Shown here: positions 18,111 through 29,410 of the stretch, piece by piece
Numbering within the stretch: position 1 is the first letter of the stretch
Layout of the letters: every line of letters begins with the position of its first letter
Position numbers and translations under genes: made by a program
DNA from: Sorangium cellulosum
GTDB lineage: Bacteria > Myxococcota_A > Polyangia > Polyangiales > Polyangiaceae
Length of the DNA stretch: 64,000 nt
Direction of reading: 5' to 3'
Assembly: GCF_004135735.1 (NCBI RefSeq)
Contig: NZ_CP012670.1
Coordinates: 5,782,501-5,846,500, forward strand
Notes under the pieces: model-generated
Seen by the model: only the letters and a program-made list of their open reading frames with translations
What the model was told of the DNA's origin: nothing
Database searches by the model: none

Positions 18111-18124
18111 GGCGGCGGCGACCT

Positions 18125-18324
18125 GACCCAGGTTGGTCCACAGGCAGGCGGCGGCGGCGACCTGACCCAGGTTGGTCCACAGGCAGGCGGCGGCGGCGAC
18201 CTGACCCAGGTTGGTCCACAGGCGGCGGCGGCGGCGACCTGACCCAGGTTGGTCCGCCGCGCGCACACCTTGACCCAGGTTGATCCACCTTCGGCGGTGG
18301 CGGCGAGCCGACCCAGGTTGGTCC
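18125..18324 (+). repeat. REP-like array 1: six copies of GACCCAGGTTGGTCC
   Basis: Copies begin at 18125, 18164, 18203, 18241, 18272 (one mismatch) and 18310. The first three are spaced exactly 39 bases, with GGC-rich linkers. Each core contains a GACC…GGTC inverted repeat around CAGGTT and could form a small hairpin. The array lies between the aldo/keto reductase stop and the 3' end of the RAYT-like transposase gene. The remainder of the 18111-18464 gap holds a 12-bp palindrome TACAAATTTGTA at 18401-18412. Confidence 0.9.
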
Positions 18325-18464
18325 GCCTCGCATGGCTTCGCGCGCGCTCTCGATCGGATTCACCTGATCCATGCACCCAGGCGACGACCGAGGCTCCGCA
18401 TACAAATTTGTACGACCCCGGCCAGCCAGCCGCCGCTCCCCGCAGCCCGAGGCTCCCGAGGTGA

Positions 18465-19385
18465 TTACGCGAGGACTGCGCTCTCCTCGACACGAACCCC
18501 ATGGAGCACGCGCATCCACCAAGTACCAACAGGAAACACGGCGCTGCGCACACCCGCACGCCAGCTCGCTAGCGCGTCGCGGTATGCCGCACGAAAGGCG
18601 CGTACCGCGGTAGCGGCAAGCTGCAATGCCTCCGGCTGCTGCCGACCCACGGCAAACGTGGGGTTGCGCCCGCGCACCGGCTCGACGCTCGTCGCACGGC
18701 GGTAGGGCGAGACCTCGCCCGCGCGCACGGGACCGAGGACGCCCGAGCCCTGCCGTTGCAACGCCATGCGCGCCTGCTCCTCCTGTCCCTCGAGCTCCAC
18801 AGCCACCTCCTCGCGGAAGCTGTCGGCGTCCTCCTGGGCGATCCCCGGTGGCAGCGTGAGCGCAAGCGTCGCCTCGTCAGGCCACCGGGGGTTGGTCGGG
18901 TCGAAGTACACGTCGGGGCGCATGGCGCGCAGCATGCCGCGGCCCAGCTCGTCCACAAGCACCTTGGCGCCCGACCAGTCGCACGCTCGACTGACCAGCC
19001 CCGCGACGACAGGATTGGCCAGGGTGTAGGCGACCTTCTCCACCACGGCCGCTGGCGTCATCAGGCGCACAACGCTGGTCGGTTCGTGATCCCACACCGG
19101 GCCCTCCCATGCGCGCAGCACCTTGGTACCGAGCGCGACGAGGCGATGGAAAAATTGCAGGAAGCGCGGAAGGACGCCATCGACGTCGGTGATGACGAGG
19201 TGAAGGTGAGTGGACATGACGCACAGCGCGTGGACCTGGACACCGAAGCGGCGCGCCGAGACGGCGAGTGAATACAGCACGAGCTGGGAGATGGCGGCGT
19301 CGGGGCGCAAGAGCATGTGCCGGCGCAGAGCGCGGCGGGTGAGCAGATAGGTGGCGCCGGGGACGATCGAACGGGGCTGGCTCAT
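18465..19385 (-). CDS. REP-associated tyrosine transposase-like (Y1/HUH) protein
   Basis: The 306-residue protein begins MSQPRSIVPGATYLLTRRAL, typical of the IS200/RAYT Y1 transposase family. The HUH metal motif is HLH in MSTHLHLVIT (about residues 60-62). The segment EKVAYTLANPVVAGLVSRA (about 115-130) matches the helix carrying the catalytic tyrosine and the NPV.AGLV signature. A further ~170 residues of unassigned sequence follow. RAYT enzymes nick single-stranded DNA at REP hairpins. Here the gene lies between two arrays of the same GACC…GGTTGG core in opposite orientations, the arrangement of a REPtron. ATG 19385 is preferred; upstream in-frame sequence is repeat-derived. The transposition activity is inferred. 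Confidence 0.8.
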   Translation of the reverse strand: MSQPRSIVPGATYLLTRRALRRHMLLRPDAAISQLVLYSLAVSARRFGVQVHALCVMSTHLHLVITDVDGVLPRFLQFFHRLVALGTKVLRAWEGPVWDHEPTSVVRLMTPAAVVEKVAYTLANPVVAGLVSRACDWSGAKVLVDELGRGMLRAMRPDVYFDPTNPRWPDEATLALTLPPGIAQEDADSFREEVAVELEGQEEQARMALQRQGSGVLGPVRAGEVSPYRRATSVEPVRGRNPTFAVGRQQPEALQLAATAVRAFRAAYRDALASWRAGVRSAVFPVGTWWMRVLHGVRVEESAVLA

Positions 19386-19532
19386 GGTCCGCGGGTATTG
19401 ACAAACGCTGTGCCAGATGCGGACAGCTGGGATTTCCGCAATTTGAGCGCCGAAGGACGTGGCGGCCGCCACCCGCTCACCATGCAACCGCCAGCCATCG
19501 TTAAGTTGGGTCCCCCTGCCACGCGGGCGGGA

Positions 19533-19801
19533 GACCCAACCTCGGTCGGGAGACCCAACCTCGGTCGCGTCGCGGTCGGGAGACCCAACCTCGGTCGCGT
19601 GGTCACCCAACCAAGGTCAACACGCAACCATGGTCGGTCGCTCCCAACCACGGTCAGGTCCGGTCAACCACGGTCGGGTCCGGATCGCCAACCACGGTCG
19701 GGTCGGGACGCCCCAACCAGGTCGGGACGCCCCAACCACGGTCGGGTCGGGACGGGACGGGACGGGACGACGGTCGCGGGTCCGGATCGCCAACCACGGT
19801 C
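19533..19801 (-). repeat. REP-like array 2: about eleven copies of CCAACC-NN-GGTC
   Basis: The core CCAACC(A/T)(C/A/T)GGTC recurs at about 19533, 19552, 19582, 19604, 19624, 19643, 19664, 19687, 19711 (one base shorter), 19731 and 19789. The first three are GACCCAACCTCGGTC with 19-30 base spacing. Read on the minus strand this is GACC-NN-GGTTGG, the same core as array 1 but inverted. Between 19800 and 19860 the array degrades into GGTCGGGACG runs. It occupies most of the 573-base gap between the transposase and the NUDIX gene. Confidence 0.85.
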
Positions 19802-19946
19802 GGGTCGGGACGGTCGGGTCGGGACGCCGCCGCGACGGTCGGGGCGGGACGCCGCCGCGCGGCCAGTACGACCGAGCAGCTCCGGTCGCCGCAGCCGAGC
19901 GGCGCGCGCGGTGTCCTGGGCCGCAAAGGCCGCCGGCCGGAGATGC

Positions 19947-20591: not shown

Positions 20592-20919
20592 GCGGCCACG
20601 CGCCCGCGACTCGCCGGAATACCCCGTCGGTCGTGACGACACCGCCCTCGCGCGCGCCCGCGCCGACCTGCTTTCCCTCTTGCCCGGCTCGATCGCGCCA
20701 TGATACGTGTCGGCGGCCTGGGGTTCGGGGGTGGGCCTGCTGCGCTACAGGCCGAGGCATGCTGTCCGCCATCATGCGTCCGTCCCCGTCTCCCACGGTC
20801 GGCCCTCGTCGTCGCAAGCCTGTTGCTCCGCTCCGCGCTCGTCCGTACGGTCGAGGAGGGGCGCTCTCCGTCTCGTGCGCCAGCCCGCCTGCCGGAGCGG
20901 CGCTCTCTCGACATCGGCG
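20592..20919. other. Intergenic gap, nothing recognised
   Basis: 328 bases between the NUDIX gene and the giant regulator. The regulator's frame is open through much of it (from 20707), but the peptide is Arg/Ser-rich without domain character, so it is treated as leader or untranslated DNA. No clear promoter, palindrome or repeat was found. Confidence 0.4.
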
Positions 20920-23900
20920 ATGCTCACCCTACCCAGCTATCACTCCGTCATCCATTTCGACACGAGGGGCGACTCCGCCCGCTACCGCGCCATCCGCGCG
21001 AGCGACGGCGCCCCGGTCATGCTCAAGGTGCTCGACGCCGGCGCCTCGCGCGTCGTGGATCGCGCCCGCCTCAAGCACGAGTACAAGCACATCGCGCGCA
21101 TCGAGTCCGAGCGCGTCGTCAAGGTCCATGGCGTGGAGGAGCACGACGGGGGCCTCGTCCTGGTCCTCGAGGACACGACCGGAGAGGAGCTCGGGAGCTT
21201 CCTCGCGGCGCGCGGCAGGCTCGATGTCGCGAGGTGCCTCGATCTCGCGGTCTCCATGGCCGAGGCCGTGCGCGTGCTGCACGGGCACGCGATCGTGCAC
21301 GGCGCCATCGGGCCGAAGAGCTTCCTCGTCACCGGCGACGATCAAGCCCGGATCCTGAACTACGGGGTCGACGCCGCGGTCACGCACGAGGTCGAGTCGC
21401 TCTACAGCGATGCGGTCGTGTCCGACGTGCTCCCCTACCGCTCGCCCGAGCAGACCGGCCGGATGAACCGCAGCGTCGACCACCGCTCGGATCTCTACTC
21501 GCTCGGCGTGCTGTTCTACCGGATGCTCACCGGGCGGCTGCCCTTCGAGGCGAGCGACCCGCTCGAGCTCATCCACGCCCACATCGCCCTCACCCCCGAG
21601 CGCCCCACGTCGCGGCGCGCCGAAGTGCCCGCCCCGCTCGGCGATGTGGTCATGAAGCTGCTCGAGAAGAACGCGGAGGATCGTTATCAGTCCGCGAGCG
21701 GCCTCCTCGCCGATCTGCACGAGTGCACGCGGCGCCTCGCCGAGGGCCGCCTCGACCGCTTCGAGCTCGGCCAGCGCGACGCCGCGTACCTGCTCCAGAT
21801 CCACCAGAAGCTCTACGGTCGCGAGGAGAGCATCCAGCGCCTCACGGACGCCTTCCTCGGCGTCCTCCGCGGGGCGCGCAAGGTCGTCCTCGTCTCCGGC
21901 TACTCGGGCATCGGCAAGTCGTCCCTGGTGCAGGAGATCCTGAAGCCCCTCGCGCGCGAGAAGGGCTATTATATCAGCGGCAAGTACGACCAGTACAACC
22001 GGGACCGGCCCCTCGGCCCGGTGCTGCAGGCGTTCGACGCGCTGCTCCGGCAGATCCTGTCCGAGAGCGAGGAGCGGATCGCCCGCTGGCGAGCGGCGAT
22101 GCTCCAGGGGCTCGGGAGCAACGCGCAGGTCGTCTGCGAGGTCCTCCCGGCGCTCGAGTACCTCATCGGCGCGCAGCCGCCCGTGCCCGCCCTCGGCCCC
22201 GTCGAGGCGCAGAACCGCCTGAACCTCACCTTCCAGCGCTTCGTCTCGGTCTTCACCGGGCAAGGGCGCCCCATCGTCCTCTTCCTCGACGATCTCCAGT
22301 GGATCGACGCCGCGAGCCTGAGCCTCGTCAACGCGCTGCTCGAGGGCGACGGGCTCGGGGCCTTCTTCTTCTGCGGCGCCTACCGCGACAACGAGGTGAG
22401 CTCCGCGCACCCCTTCATCCGCGCCGTCGACGACCTCCGCAAGGGCGGCGTCGAGATCGAGCCGATCGTGCTCGACGCGCTGGAGCTCCCGCACGTCACG
22501 GCGCTCATCCAGGACAGCCTCGGGCGCTCGGACGGCGAGCAGCTCGCGGCGCTCGTCCTGAAGAAGACCGGCGGGAACCCGTTCTTCATCAAGCGCTTCC
22601 TCAAATCGATCCACGACAGCGGCGCGCTCTCCTTCGACGAGGCCGGCCGCTGGTCGTGGGACCTCGCCGCGATAAGCGCCCTCGAGTACACCGATAACGT
22701 CCTCGACCTCATGGCGAGCAACATCCGCCGCCTGCCCGCGCCCACGCAGGACGCGCTCCGGCTCGCGGCGGCCCTCGGCAACCGCTTCGATCTGGGCACG
22801 CTCTCGACCATCAGCGGGTGCTCCGTCGACGAGCTCTACGGGCGCGTCGAGCCGGCGCTCAAGGAAGAGCTCATCGCGAGCGACGGCGCGTGCCACCGCT
22901 TCGTCCACGACAAGATCCAGGAGGCCGCCTACTCGATGATCCCCGTCGAGGAGCGGCCGGGCCTCCACCACCGCATCGGCGTGCTCCTGCGCGACGCGCT
23001 CGGGGCCGACGCGCAGGCGCTCTTCGACGTCGTGAACCACCTGAACCGCGCCGGCGACCTCATCCGCGATCCCAAAGAGCGCCTCGAGCTCTCGCGGATG
23101 AACCTCCGCGCGGCCGAGCGGGCCGAGGAGAGCGCCGCCTTCGACGCCGCGGCCAAGTACCTGACCGAGGGCATCGCGCGGCTCCCGGACGAGCCCTGGG
23201 CGACCGAGTACGATCTCGCCTTCGCGCTCATCACGAAGATGGGCCTCATGCAGGCGCTCACCGGCCGCCCCGACGACGCCCTCGCCACGCTGGCCCAGGC
23301 CGTCGTCCACGCGAGGAGCCGGATCGACGCGACCCGGGCCCACCGGCTCAAGGTCAAGGTGCATATCCTCAAGGCCGATCTGCACGCCGCCCTCGCCGAG
23401 GGGCTCGTGGCGTTGCGCGCATTCGGGATCGATCTCCCGCCCTTCCCCTCGGACGAGGCGGTCGCCGGCGACGTCGAGGCGACGCTGAGGTTCCTCGGGG
23501 ACCGCTCGATGGAGTCGCTCTGCGATCTCCCCCGCCTCGAGGACCCCGAGCTCGCCGTCCTGCACAGCGTGCTCGAGGAGATGATCTCGTCCTGCTACTT
23601 CCTCGCGAGCAACAACTTCGGCTTCTGCGTGATGAAGATCCTCCGGGACACCGTGCAATACGGCGTCTCGCAGAGCTCGGTCTTCGCCTATGTCTGCTTC
23701 GGCCAGATGCTGTGCGTCAGCGGCCGCATCGAGCTCGGGTACGCCTTCGGCGAGGCCGCGGTCGAGCTCAACCGGCGCTATCCGGACAGGCGGAACGATC
23801 CCATCCTCGCCTGCATGTGGGGCGCCTTCGTCCAGCACTGGAGGACGAGCTACGCGAAGGGGCGAGAGATCTTGCTCTCCGGCATCCACGCCGGCGTGGA

Positions 23901-25800
23901 GACGGGGCAGTACGTCTGGACCTTCTACTGCATGACCAACGCGAACACGGCCAGCCTCCTCCTCGGCTTGCCCCTCGCCGAGATCAAGGCCGAGTCGCGC
24001 TCGCTCCTCCCCCTGCGGAGGTACGACCGGTGGAACATCATCACCTGGATGGTCACCGCCGTCGGTCAGCTCTGCGAGCACCTCATGAGCCCGGATCCGG
24101 GCCCGACGCACCTCGCCGGCGAGTGGATCCAGATCGACGAGATCATCGACGCCGCGGTCCAGATCAACAACCAGGCCTCGCTCTTCTTCACCATCTTTTA
24201 CCGCCTCCTCCTGCGCCTGTTCCAGGGCGATTACCCGACGGCGGCGGCGCTCGCCTACGACGCGAACCCCAGCATCATGGGCATCGCGGGCTGGCACGGC
24301 AATCCTCCGTTCCACTTCTACGGGGGTGTCGCCCTGCTCCAGGCGGCCGACAGCGTGGACGCGGAGACCCGGGCGCGGTACCTCGAGAAGGCCCGCGCCT
24401 TCGGCGAGCGGGTCGCCTTCTGGGCCAGCCACGCGCCCGACAACATGAGGCACCGCGACCTCCTGCTCGCGGCCGAGCTCGCGCGCGTGAGCGGCGACGT
24501 GCGGAGGGCCGTGGACCTCTACGACGAGGGCATCCGCGCGGCGGACCAGGGCGGCTACCTGCACGACGTCGCGCTCGGCAACGAGCTCTGCGCGCGCTGC
24601 TACCTCGGCCTCGGGAGGACCACGATCGCGCGCGCCTACATGATCGAGGCCCACGCCCGGTATGCGCGCTGGGGCGCGACGAGCGCCATGACCCGCCTCG
24701 AGCGCGCCTATCCCGATCTCCTGCGGCGCGAGGCGCCGGCCGTCTCCAGCGCGCCGCGGGTCGTCCGGGAGGACCTCGACCTCCGCAGCGTGCTCAAGGC
24801 CTCCCAGGCCCTCGCCGGGGAGATCGTCCTGCCCCGGCTGCTCGAGGCGCTGATGCGCATCATGCTCGAGAACGCCGGCGCGCGCCGCGGCTTCCTGATC
24901 CTGAAGAGCGAGGGTCGCCTCACCATCGAGGCCGCCGGCGACGTCGCGGGCGACCGCATCGAGCGGATCGACTCGGCGCCCCTGGGCTCCCGCGCCGATC
25001 TGGCCGCCAGCGTGATCCAGTATGTCGCGCGGACCGAGGAGAGCGTCGTCATCGACGACGCCCCGAGCCACCCCTCCTTCGCCTCCGACCCCTATGTCCG
25101 GGCCGCGCAGCCGAGGTCGCTGCTCGCCTCGCCCATCCATCATCAGGGGCGGGTCATCGGGATCGTGTACCTGGAGAACGCGCTCACCTGCGCGGCCTTC
25201 ACGCGCGATCGCGTCGAGCTCATCGGGCTGCTCTCGTCCCAGGTCGCCGTCTCGCTGGAGAACGCCCGCCTCTTCGCGCAGCTCGAGGAGAAGGTGGAGG
25301 CCCGCACGGCCGAGCTCCGCGCGGCGCACGCCGAGCTCGGCCAGCTCTACGCCGCGCGGGAGCGCGAGCAGGAGGAGCGGATGCTGGAGCAGCGCGCCCT
25401 CATCGAGCAGCAGCGCGAGATGATCCACGCCCTCTCCGCCCCCATCCTCCAGGTCTGGGACGGCGTCCTGGCCGTGCCGCTCATCGGCGCCCTGGACCGC
25501 GGGCGCGCGGACGAGCTGATGCACAGCCTGCTGCAGGCCGTCGCGCGCGGCGAGGTCCGCTTCGCCCTGCTCGACACGACGGGCGTGGAGACCATCGACG
25601 AGGCCGTGGCCGATCACCTCGTCCGCATCGTGCGCGCCGTCGAGCTGCTGGGCGTGCGGGCGATCATCACCGGGATCCGCCCCGCGGTCGCCCGGACCAT
25701 GACCTCGCTCGACATCGACCTGCGCGCGCTCGGCACGCACGCCACCCTGCGCGAGGCGCTCAAGTTCTGCATGCGGAGCCTCGCGGCCAGGCCGGGGTGA
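20920..25800 (+). CDS. Pseudokinase - AAA ATPase - GAF - STAS giant regulator
   Basis: The 1626-residue cytosolic signalling protein. Residues ~10-275 have the Ser/Thr-kinase fold (VMLKVLDAG Lys, [33 protein letters not shown] activation segment split here for length). The catalytic loop reads [12 protein letters not shown] and the DFG position reads NYG, so the catalytic Asp and metal Asp are lost: a pseudokinase. Residues ~295-560 are an AAA/STAND ATPase with Walker A [11 protein letters not shown] (~326) and Walker B [12 protein letters not shown] (~451). A long TPR-like helical region follows, then GAF (~1290-1450), a coiled coil and an RsbR-type STAS domain (~1498-1617; [20 protein letters not shown]). 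Myxobacterial relatives usually end in a histidine kinase; STAS suggests stressosome-like partner switching. ATG 20920 starts right at the domain. Confidence 0.9.
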   Translation: [1626 protein letters not shown]

Positions 25801-25898
25801 CCGGCGGGGCGCCCGCGCTCTCGCGACCGCGACCACGAGGAGGAGCTGCCCATCTCGACGCGCGCAGCACGCGCGAGGAGGCGTCCACCCGGTCAGGC

Positions 25899-25950
25899 GT
25901 TGTCACGTGACATGTCGACTCATGTCACGTGACAACCGTGACATGTCACG
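25899..25950. promoter_or_regulatory. Cluster of perfect palindromes, operator array candidate
   Basis: Two 16-base arms, GTTGTCACGTGACATG (25899-25914) and its exact reverse complement (25921-25936), flank TCGACT. Each arm also contains the self-palindrome GTCACGTGAC. A third palindrome, CGTGACATGTCACG, follows directly at 25937-25950. The cluster is about 180 bases upstream of the lipoprotein gene and 100 after the giant regulator. The half-site TGTCACG/CGTGACA recurs throughout. A terminator for the upstream gene is less likely because there is no T tract and the arms are themselves palindromic. The rest of the 25801-26128 gap shows no gene. Confidence 0.6.
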
Positions 25951-26128
25951 ATAGCCCGGGTGCAGCCTTGACCTGCGGGACGCGCGCTGAGCGCCTCGTC
26001 CTCGCCCGTGCCTCGCGCGACCGGCGCGGCACAGGGCTTGCCGTGCGCCGCCTGACCGGCGGCCCGCCCCCGCGCGGGCGTACGGCTGGACATCCCCTGG
26101 AAACTCAACACGGAGAGGCACGGTTCCA

Positions 26129-26746
26129 ATGCAAAGCATCCTCCTGAAAACAGGCGTTGCGGCCTTCCTTTGCCTGGCGGCGTCGGGCTGCGTCGTGGCC
26201 GAGGGCGGCGAGCCCGAGGACGACGAGGACCTGGGCACGGCGAGCGCGGCGCAGATCGACATTGGATACAAGAAGAAGTGGCGGCTCTACACGGCGACGT
26301 TCTCGAACGGGCAGCCTTTCTTTCGCGTGCTCGCGATCGGGGGGAGCGACGTGGGCCCGTACCAGGCCAACACGGAGTACTGGTATGTGACGAGTGCGAA
26401 CCTGGGCTACCTCGGCCAGAACAGCGTGGTCTTCAGCCACGTCGACGGCGACGACACGCCGCCGAAGCAGAGCGGCTCGGCGCAGTTCCAGACGCCCTGG
26501 CTCGTGCCCTGGACGTCGTTCTCGAACGACCCGGTGAGCGGCGGCTACCGCTACGACAACGGCAGCGTGCACCTGCGCATCGCCGTCAACGGCGGCGAGA
26601 TCTCGGGGCTGACCTGGTACCAGACGATCCCGGCGGCGCAGACTCCGACCAACATCGCGCTGAACGGCACGTTCACGGTCGGCTCCGGATCCGTGGTGGT
26701 CCCGCAGGGGAGCGTCGGCTACTACGTGAACAGCGCGATCCCGTGA
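26129..26746 (+). CDS. Small exported lipoprotein, unknown function
   Basis: The 205-residue protein starts with a lipoprotein signal (MQSILLKTGVAAFLCLAASGC, lipobox ASGC at about residue 21). An acidic linker GEPEDDEDL follows, then a beta-rich, aromatic domain without recognised family (KKWRLYTATFSNGQPFFRV, VLAIGGSDVGPYQAN, EYWYVTSANLGYLGQ, GYRYDNGSVHLRI). Alternating polar/hydrophobic strands suggest a beta-sandwich presented outside the inner membrane, possibly on the cell surface. GGAGAGG lies about 11 bases upstream of ATG. A palindrome cluster lies ahead, and the gene is likely under its control. A hairpin follows the stop. Confidence 0.75.
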   Translation: MQSILLKTGVAAFLCLAASGCVVAEGGEPEDDEDLGTASAAQIDIGYKKKWRLYTATFSNGQPFFRVLAIGGSDVGPYQANTEYWYVTSANLGYLGQNSVVFSHVDGDDTPPKQSGSAQFQTPWLVPWTSFSNDPVSGGYRYDNGSVHLRIAVNGGEISGLTWYQTIPAAQTPTNIALNGTFTVGSGSVVVPQGSVGYYVNSAIP

Positions 26747-26749
26747 TGC

Positions 26750-26771
26750 CCCCGGGCCTGTGTCCCCGGGG
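26750..26771 (+). terminator. GC hairpin after lipoprotein gene
   Basis: Arms CCCCGGG (26750-26756) and CCCGGGG (26765-26771) with an 8-base loop, starting 4 bases after the stop codon. No T tract. It lies between convergent genes. Confidence 0.45.
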
Positions 26772-26844
26772 CCCACGTTGACCGGGCGCCGCCGTCCTCG
26801 GGGCCGGCGCGGCGCCGGCGGCCGCGAGGGGCGCCGGCGCTCGC

Positions 26845-28890: not shown

Positions 28891-29042
28891 ACGGCTGCCG
28901 CGGGTGCGCCGCTCGGGACAGGAAAGGACAGCACCGCGGCGCGCTACCCGCTCGGCGGGTTAGCAAATCCTGCCGCGCAGCGAAAGGCGGCGCTCTCCAG
29001 CATCGGCGCCCTCCGTGGGAGGTTTCCGTCCCGGGCTTCCGT

Positions 29043-29410
29043 CCCAGGTTGGCAGGCTTCCGTCCCAGGTTGGGGACCCCTCACGCCTCCCCCATCCGAC
29101 CCAGGTTGGGGAGGTCTCCCCCATCCGACCCAGGTTGGGGACGCCTCCCCCATCCGACCCAGGTTGGGGAGGTCTCCCCCATCCGACCCAGGTTGGGGAC
29201 GCCTCCCCCATCCGACCCAGGTTGGGGACGCCTCCCCCATCCGACCCAGGTTGGGGACGCCTCCCCCATCCGACCCAGGTTGGGGAGGTCTCCCCCATCC
29301 GACCCAGGTTGGGGAGGTCTCAGGTTGGGGAGGTCTCCGAGGTTGGGGAGGTCTCCGAGGTTGGGGAGGTCTCCGGGGGAGGTCTCCGAGGTTGGGGAGG
29401 TCTCCGTCCC
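29043..29410 (+). repeat. REP-like array 3: GACCCAGGTTGGGGA at 29-bp period
   Basis: Two CCCAGGTTGG copies near 29043 and 29063 lead into eight copies of GACCCAGGTTGGGGA at 29098, 29127, 29156, 29185, 29214, 29243, 29272 and 29301, an exact 29-base period. The linkers alternate between GGTCTCCCCCATCC and CGCCTCCCCCATCC. Degenerate 18-base units GAGGTTGGGGAGGTCTCC follow to 29410. The core matches array 1 (GACCCAGGTTGG). It fills the gap between the TonB receptor (divergent) and the ArsR promoter. The region 28891-29040 shows nothing else. Confidence 0.92.

Follow-up and report, generated by a model that had tools for sequence, protein, structure and literature searches.

Sorangium is a soil bacterium with a large genome, and the genome analyzed here consists of a single contig of 11.26 Mb. 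The window (the whole stretch of DNA that was analyzed, 64,000 nucleotides) contains a gene for a RAYT-like protein lying between two arrays of a short repeat core, and a further array farther downstream in the coordinates. The features referred to below are as follows.

18111 to 18324, plus strand: 3'-side array, GGTTG end towards the gene; its six cores GACCCAGGTTGG are separated by linkers specific to this array.
18465 to 19385, minus strand: gene for a RAYT/TnpAREP-like Y1 HUH protein of 306 amino acids (MSQPRS...), assigned from motifs, profile match and fold match.
19386 to 19523, minus strand: leader that separates the start codon from the 5' array; its sequence is conserved in the paralogues.
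19402 to 19415, minus strand: sigma-54-like -24/-12 element TGGCACAGCGTTTG, ~30 bp upstream of the ATG, assigned by motif resemblance only.
19460 to 19471, no strand assigned: 12-bp palindrome TGGCGGCCGCCA, ~85 bp 5' of the start codon.
19524 to 19866, minus strand: 5'-side array of eight exact or ten relaxed cores, GGTTG end towards the gene.
29020 to 29410, plus strand: solo array of eight exact cores (29098–29315) with a 29-bp period, plus degenerate copies.

The HUH motif of the window protein is THLH (H60 and H62), and its catalytic tyrosine is Y120 in the sequence YTLANP. These three residues, the tyrosine in the context YxxxNP, are invariant across the aligned RAYT family members except at one broken locus (L118), and the THLH and YxLANP motifs that mark a Y1 HUH protein are present together in nearly all members. 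The NCBIfam model REP_Tyr_transpos matched the window protein (E = 6.8e-12, 45.5 bits, short of the curated cut-off of 80) and all nine paralogues, while a Pfam search of the window protein returned no match, its C-terminal extension included, where subclass 2.1 TIRYT proteins have an HTH/DnaA-like domain. This extension comprises ~160 residues, and past residue ~215 the AlphaFold2 model (mean pLDDT 72 overall) mostly fell below pLDDT 65. The best PDB fold match to the model was 4er8, the E. coli RAYT-REP complex (E = 1.9e-4, TM 0.72 on the target), with IS200/IS605 transposases (2xm3, 2vjv and others) ranking after it. As judged from family match and predicted fold, the window protein is of the RAYT/TnpAREP (Y1 HUH) kind. 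The window genome holds nine or ten RAYT paralogues with 67–72% identity to the window protein; five other Sorangium assemblies gave 4–10 RAYT matches each, and a related RAYT was detected in 78 of 184 Polyangiales genomes. Between orthologous pairs of the family dN/dS was 0.13–0.24, indicating that the RAYT genes are under purifying selection.

The paralogue at L009/L010/L118 (G000:C1:10559823-10562209) looks split, its first 29 codons lying ~1.5 kb from the remainder, apparently because of an inserted sequence. A second RAYT subfamily, ~42% identical and with an NHWH motif, was seen at L140 (G165:C1:380500-395500) and L126 (G166:C1:492500-507500); it has its own TAACCTGGGTC/T arrays, and those on the two sides of the gene share one orientation.

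In the 3'-side array of the window gene, exact copies of GACCCAGGTTGGTCC start at 18125, 18164, 18203, 18241 and 18310, and a copy with one mismatch starts at 18272. The six plus-orientation copies given in the preliminary description are thus present, one of them imperfect, but the uniform 39-bp period ascribed to them is not, the spacings being 39, 39, 38, 31 and 38 bp. On the 5' side, cores (GACCGA/GT/TT-GGTTGG) are found at 19533–19802 and degenerate copies extend to ~19866. The inverse orientation reported for these copies was confirmed, although their number, put at about eleven, came to eight exact copies of GACCNNGGTTGG or ten copies of the relaxed form GACCNNGGTTG, with irregular spacings of 17–58 bp. 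The exact 15-mer GACCCAGGTTGGTCC is absent from the 5'-side array, where the nearest sequence is GACCGAGGTTGGGTC, with three mismatches; only the core GACCNNGGTTG(G) is common to both sides of the gene. When up to three mismatches were allowed, the 15-mer matched 17 times in the window, compared with 1.8 matches expected and five in the highest shuffle. Eight of the 17 fall in the array at 29098–29315, which had escaped the earlier reading of this DNA.

One consensus was derived per array from 115 arrays (714 copies). Only GACCCGACC[C/G][A/G]GGTTG was conserved, with almost no information at the other positions; array periods ranged from 15 to >50 bp, and the linkers were array-specific. The two middle bases of the core were CA, CG, GG, GA, GT or TG at 675 of 689 sites, a constraint that makes the core site polar. 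A CRISPR-like array is ruled out because the linkers themselves repeat within an array.

The preliminary description had also proposed that GACC and GGTC arms form a hairpin in the core, and this part of it did not hold. The 3' GGTC arm is present in the window array, yet it is not conserved across the 115 arrays; only 6 of 689 core-like sites have the perfect-palindrome form GACC..GGTC, and folding of the 15-mer was no better than that of its shuffles (z = -0.2). Over 90 arrays, the mean folding z-score was -1.3 for the core strand, -0.4 for its complement and -0.6 for permuted cores, i.e., array folding on the core strand is only mildly better than shuffled. A conserved hairpin as the defining feature of the core is ruled out by the consensus together with these folding scores. 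The consensus of the 115 arrays contained neither the GT[AG]G (GTAG) guide tetranucleotide nor the GGGGWSAS motif. With no conserved GACC/GGTC hairpin, no GTAG and only weak folding, the repeats are not canonical REPs. A hairpin between neighbouring copies (GGTTG-linker-CGACC) is possible and would leave the linkers free; against it stand the weak mean z of the core strand and the G.T wobble, which is kept and not swapped for G-C or A-T.

The arrangement first noted at the window locus, in which a Y1/HUH protein of the RAYT family is flanked by inverted arrays sharing a core, recurs at the Sorangium paralogues. Within ~1 kb flanks of 31 Sorangium RAYT loci, 262 cores matching the relaxed pattern GACCNN[G/C]GTTG pointed inward and 21 outward. 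Inward cores were present at 30 of the 31 loci (at least one each) and on both sides of the gene at 23, so that terminal inverted repeats of the TIRtron type flank the gene at these 23 loci. Exceptions were found among some divergent Sorangium RAYTs, L142 having no core and L139 two arrays in the same direction, while the orthologous divergent RAYTs L116/L141 bear ACCGACGTTG in place of the usual core. RAYTs of other Polyangiales families (56–58% identical) have the same inverted core in 1–3 copies per side (for example, CTCACCCAGGTTGG ... CAACCTGGGTCGGGTCG). Minicystis rosea has two RAYTs, each with the variant ACCCACGTTGGCG twice on its 5' side; these account for four of the six ACCCACGTTGGCG copies in that genome. 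The presence of the inverted core or its variants at RAYTs of other families indicates that the core travels with the RAYT lineage.

In the window genome GACCNNGGTTGG occurs 136 times, compared with two occurrences of a reversed control pattern, and 34 clusters lie in the first 8.87 Mb of this genome (G000), as expected of a dispersed repeat (the listed core positions cover this part of G000 and 6.75 Mb of G165). Core and control counts in the six Sorangium genomes were 136/2, 70/6, 204/4, 66/8, 90/12 and 17/3. Most of the 178 other Polyangiales genomes had core counts near the control, the largest excesses being 48/21 (G062), 26/4 (G030) and 18/0 (G054), and high counts are thus nearly confined to Sorangium among the 184 genomes. 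Minicystis has close RAYTs without an amplified core. Amplification of the core into arrays is a feature of Sorangium. The association between arrays and transposase put forward in the preliminary description withstood this comparison: arrays are not equally common where the transposase is missing, strong amplification being seen only in Sorangium, with its 4–10 close RAYTs per genome. In a GC-rich genome one might imagine that tandem repeats of the microsatellite kind came to lie next to the transposase gene by coincidence, with no relation to it, the more so as the window holds many other short tandem repeats. Such a coincidence is contradicted by the 262:21 orientation ratio, the occurrence of inward cores at 30 of 31 loci, the count of 136 copies against 2 and the presence of the core at RAYTs of other families, and we assign it a near-negligible probability.

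Arrays also occur away from RAYT genes. With solo arrays defined as those with at least two exact cores and lying >2.5 kb from a RAYT, 35 were listed in four genomes; the one at 29020–29410 lies 9.7 kb from the window RAYT, with no RAYT adjoining it. Nine of the 35 are within 15 kb of a RAYT (0.60–0.70 expected) and 12 within 50 kb (2.3 expected), a proximity never matched by uniform placement (0 of 20,000) or by rotation (0 of 5,000). No RAYT remnants were found by tblastn beside the solo arrays that were fetched. At L098 (G000:C1:7774000-7779500) two arrays separated by ~900 bp face outwards, the opposite of the arrangement at RAYT loci, and no RAYT was detectable between them.

The positions of arrays relative to genes were surveyed with a crude gene caller. 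By its calls, arrays tended to follow the 3' end of a gene on their own strand (47 same-strand cases versus 32 opposite), convergent neighbours (same/opposite) were seen 27 times versus eight for the opposite/same arrangement, and many arrays start no more than 70 bp from a stop codon. REPs, too, have been reported between convergent genes or behind the 3' ends of genes (PMC3733652). The tendency of arrays to follow same-strand gene 3' ends or to lie between convergent genes, close to stop codons, would suit host-driven arrays, in which the core is a binding site for a host protein or a transcription-end element at gene 3' ends, arrays grow by slippage and RAYTs merely use the sites. Internally uniform arrays with array-specific periods do resemble products of slippage, and the solo arrays checked had no RAYT remnant. 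A host origin, however, fits poorly with the strict inward orientation at RAYTs, which extends even to single copies in array-free families, with the occurrence of the core together with the RAYT and not in its absence, with the different core variants borne by different RAYT lineages and with the clustering of solo arrays near RAYTs. We therefore consider host-driven arrays unlikely.

The extent of the unit was examined by comparing orthologous flanks. At L111 (G000, 2.28 Mb), homology to four relatives ends at the first repeat and resumes within ~12 bp of the last; because homology breaks at the array edges, the novel segment is exactly array-RAYT-array, a 1.6-kb unit and nothing more. The relatives have other DNA at this locus, and the gene upstream of L111 is truncated close to its 3' end and terminates within the array at GGTTGA. 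At L115 (0.71 Mb), the right array abuts conserved sequence; the flanks are 25–72 bp apart in three relatives and enclose 7.7 kb in G000, one edge of which is occupied by the RAYT unit. L117 (7.67 Mb) lies in a 6.5-kb insertion, and its left array starts where synteny with the relatives breaks off. No array was found at the far edges of the L115 and L117 insertions. That orthologous flanks end at array edges at some loci argues that array-RAYT-array is a unit. None of the compared loci showed an intact site into which just the unit had been cleanly inserted, and no clean empty site was found for the window locus, where the flanking genes of the relatives enclose 6–15 kb of other DNA. Next to the window unit, an ORF-bearing segment (~20598–26836, with a large kinase-like ORF at 20707–25800) is missing from three Sorangium relatives, in which its flanks are ~80–90 bp apart, pointing to a separate insertion adjoining the RAYT locus.

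In comparison with three relatives, the RAYTs L117 and L115 sit in insertions of 6.5–7.7 kb that have an array at a single edge, and solo arrays are located 3–14 kb from several RAYTs. These observations raise the question of whether the arrays are the ends of larger composite mobile islands with cargo, the RAYT being one gene of several. The novel segment at L111 contains the 1.6-kb unit only, the L115 and L117 insertions have no array at the far edge, and solo arrays in the vicinity face the RAYT about as often as they face away from it; we regard such islands as quite improbable. A composite transposon with the nearby solo arrays as its outer ends was likewise rejected, as their orientations show no inward bias.

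Between species, the RAYT loci include five orthologous pairs, and most of the other loci have no orthologue in the sample. Array size differs at orthologous loci, with 3 versus 29 five-prime cores at L127/L132 and arrays versus none at L139/L142. In a synteny control, which covered those loci for which the flanks mapped back to their own position, segments 2.9 kb apart and ~3–6 kb from the RAYT were more often collinear in relatives than RAYT-spanning ones, in small numbers.

The Sorangium system is REPtron-like in anatomy, with a repeat that is not a REP as the literature defines it. With REPtrons of the E. coli type (PMC8266576, PMC6006769) it shares the Y1 HUH domain and fold (4er8), the YxxxNP motif, inverted repeats around the gene together with genome-wide dispersal, location at gene 3' ends and low dN/dS. 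It differs in that its repeats lack the GT[AG]G guide and a conserved hairpin, its arrays are tandem and unidirectional whereas REPtrons have REPIN pairs, its RAYT carries the ~160-aa C-terminal extension, and several paralogues share one core. TIRtrons, or TIRYTs (Di Nocera et al., 2013, PMC3733652), combine a RAYT-like gene and terminal inverted repeats; they resemble the present system in having a RAYT-related gene, inverted non-GTAG repeats on both sides and further repeat copies elsewhere in dimers or clusters. The described TIRs mostly share GGGGWSAS, unlike the Sorangium consensus, and each Sorangium end is a tandem array in which a polar core of 16 bp alternates with array-specific linkers, and there are 4–10 units per genome. 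The main text of that paper does not mention Sorangium or the other myxobacteria looked up by name. TnpAY1 proteins of subclasses 2.1/2.3 are long, have a C-terminal domain and are listed with 'no REP found' (PMC6006769), and long RAYT relatives with C-terminal domains have been reported without flanking repeats. The window protein is similar to them in its length (306 aa), C-terminal extension, YxxxNP motif and lack of canonical REPs nearby, but here a flanking repeat exists and the residue before HUH is T, not N. IS200/IS605 TnpA proteins share the Y1 HUH fold; the Sorangium proteins have YxxxNP in place of YxxxQ, no subterminal hairpins were seen, and the paralogues, at 67–72% identity to the window protein, are not near-identical copies. 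On our best reading of these sequences, REPtrons and, more precisely, TIRtrons are the closest described systems, and Sorangium would have a new type in Myxococcota.

We consider it fairly probable that the array-RAYT-array segment is a REPtron/TIRtron-like element whose RAYT recognises a polar end that has been locally amplified into arrays. The Y1 HUH single-strand transposase would recognise the polar end GACCCGACC[C/G][A/G]GGTTG, inverted on both sides of its gene, and the unit would have moved or been copied among Sorangium sites over evolutionary time. Local duplication of the end sequence with adjacent DNA would give rise to tandem arrays, and most solo arrays would come to lie no more than tens of kb from a RAYT, a local spread that could reflect one-ended or short-range (e.g., replication-coupled) events. 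Points against this reading are the divergent RAYTs that depart from the inward orientation, the close RAYTs of Minicystis with no amplified core, and the lack among the compared loci of an intact site with a clean insertion of just the unit. From orientation, co-occurrence and proximity we infer that the RAYT recognises the core, and presumably binds or cuts it; a role for it in building or moving the arrays is suggested more weakly, and ordinary recombination or slippage may account for the spread or expansion of some of them.

How RAYTs spread repeats is an open question (PMC8266576). A more tentative and doubtful proposal is that this HUH lineage uses a short, polar, essentially unstructured end instead of a hairpin and spreads or amplifies it mainly within ~50 kb of its own gene. 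If true, this would be a repeat system that acts locally and builds arrays, with the core alone maintained and the linkers free. With 4–10 units per genome sharing a core, variable arrays at orthologous loci and nearby solo arrays, the birth, growth and range of repeats should be measurable across strains. The Sorangium system would also be the first known of its kind described in Myxococcota, none having been found in the literature searched, where absence is not proof.

The leader of the window gene has counterparts at its paralogues. The GGCGGCCGCC palindrome recurs ~85 bp upstream of many of them, and at ~105 bp in some (L111–L145); paralogue leaders also share a TTGAAAT element and a sigma-54-like TGGCAC...TTG ~30 bp before the ATG. 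By motif resemblance only, the leader suggests control by a bEBP and sigma-54, or auto-regulation. Elsewhere in the window, at 2544–2632, CGAGCTGCTGGTCGA is repeated in tandem with a 15-bp period, a codon multiple, in 5.9 copies of 98% identity.
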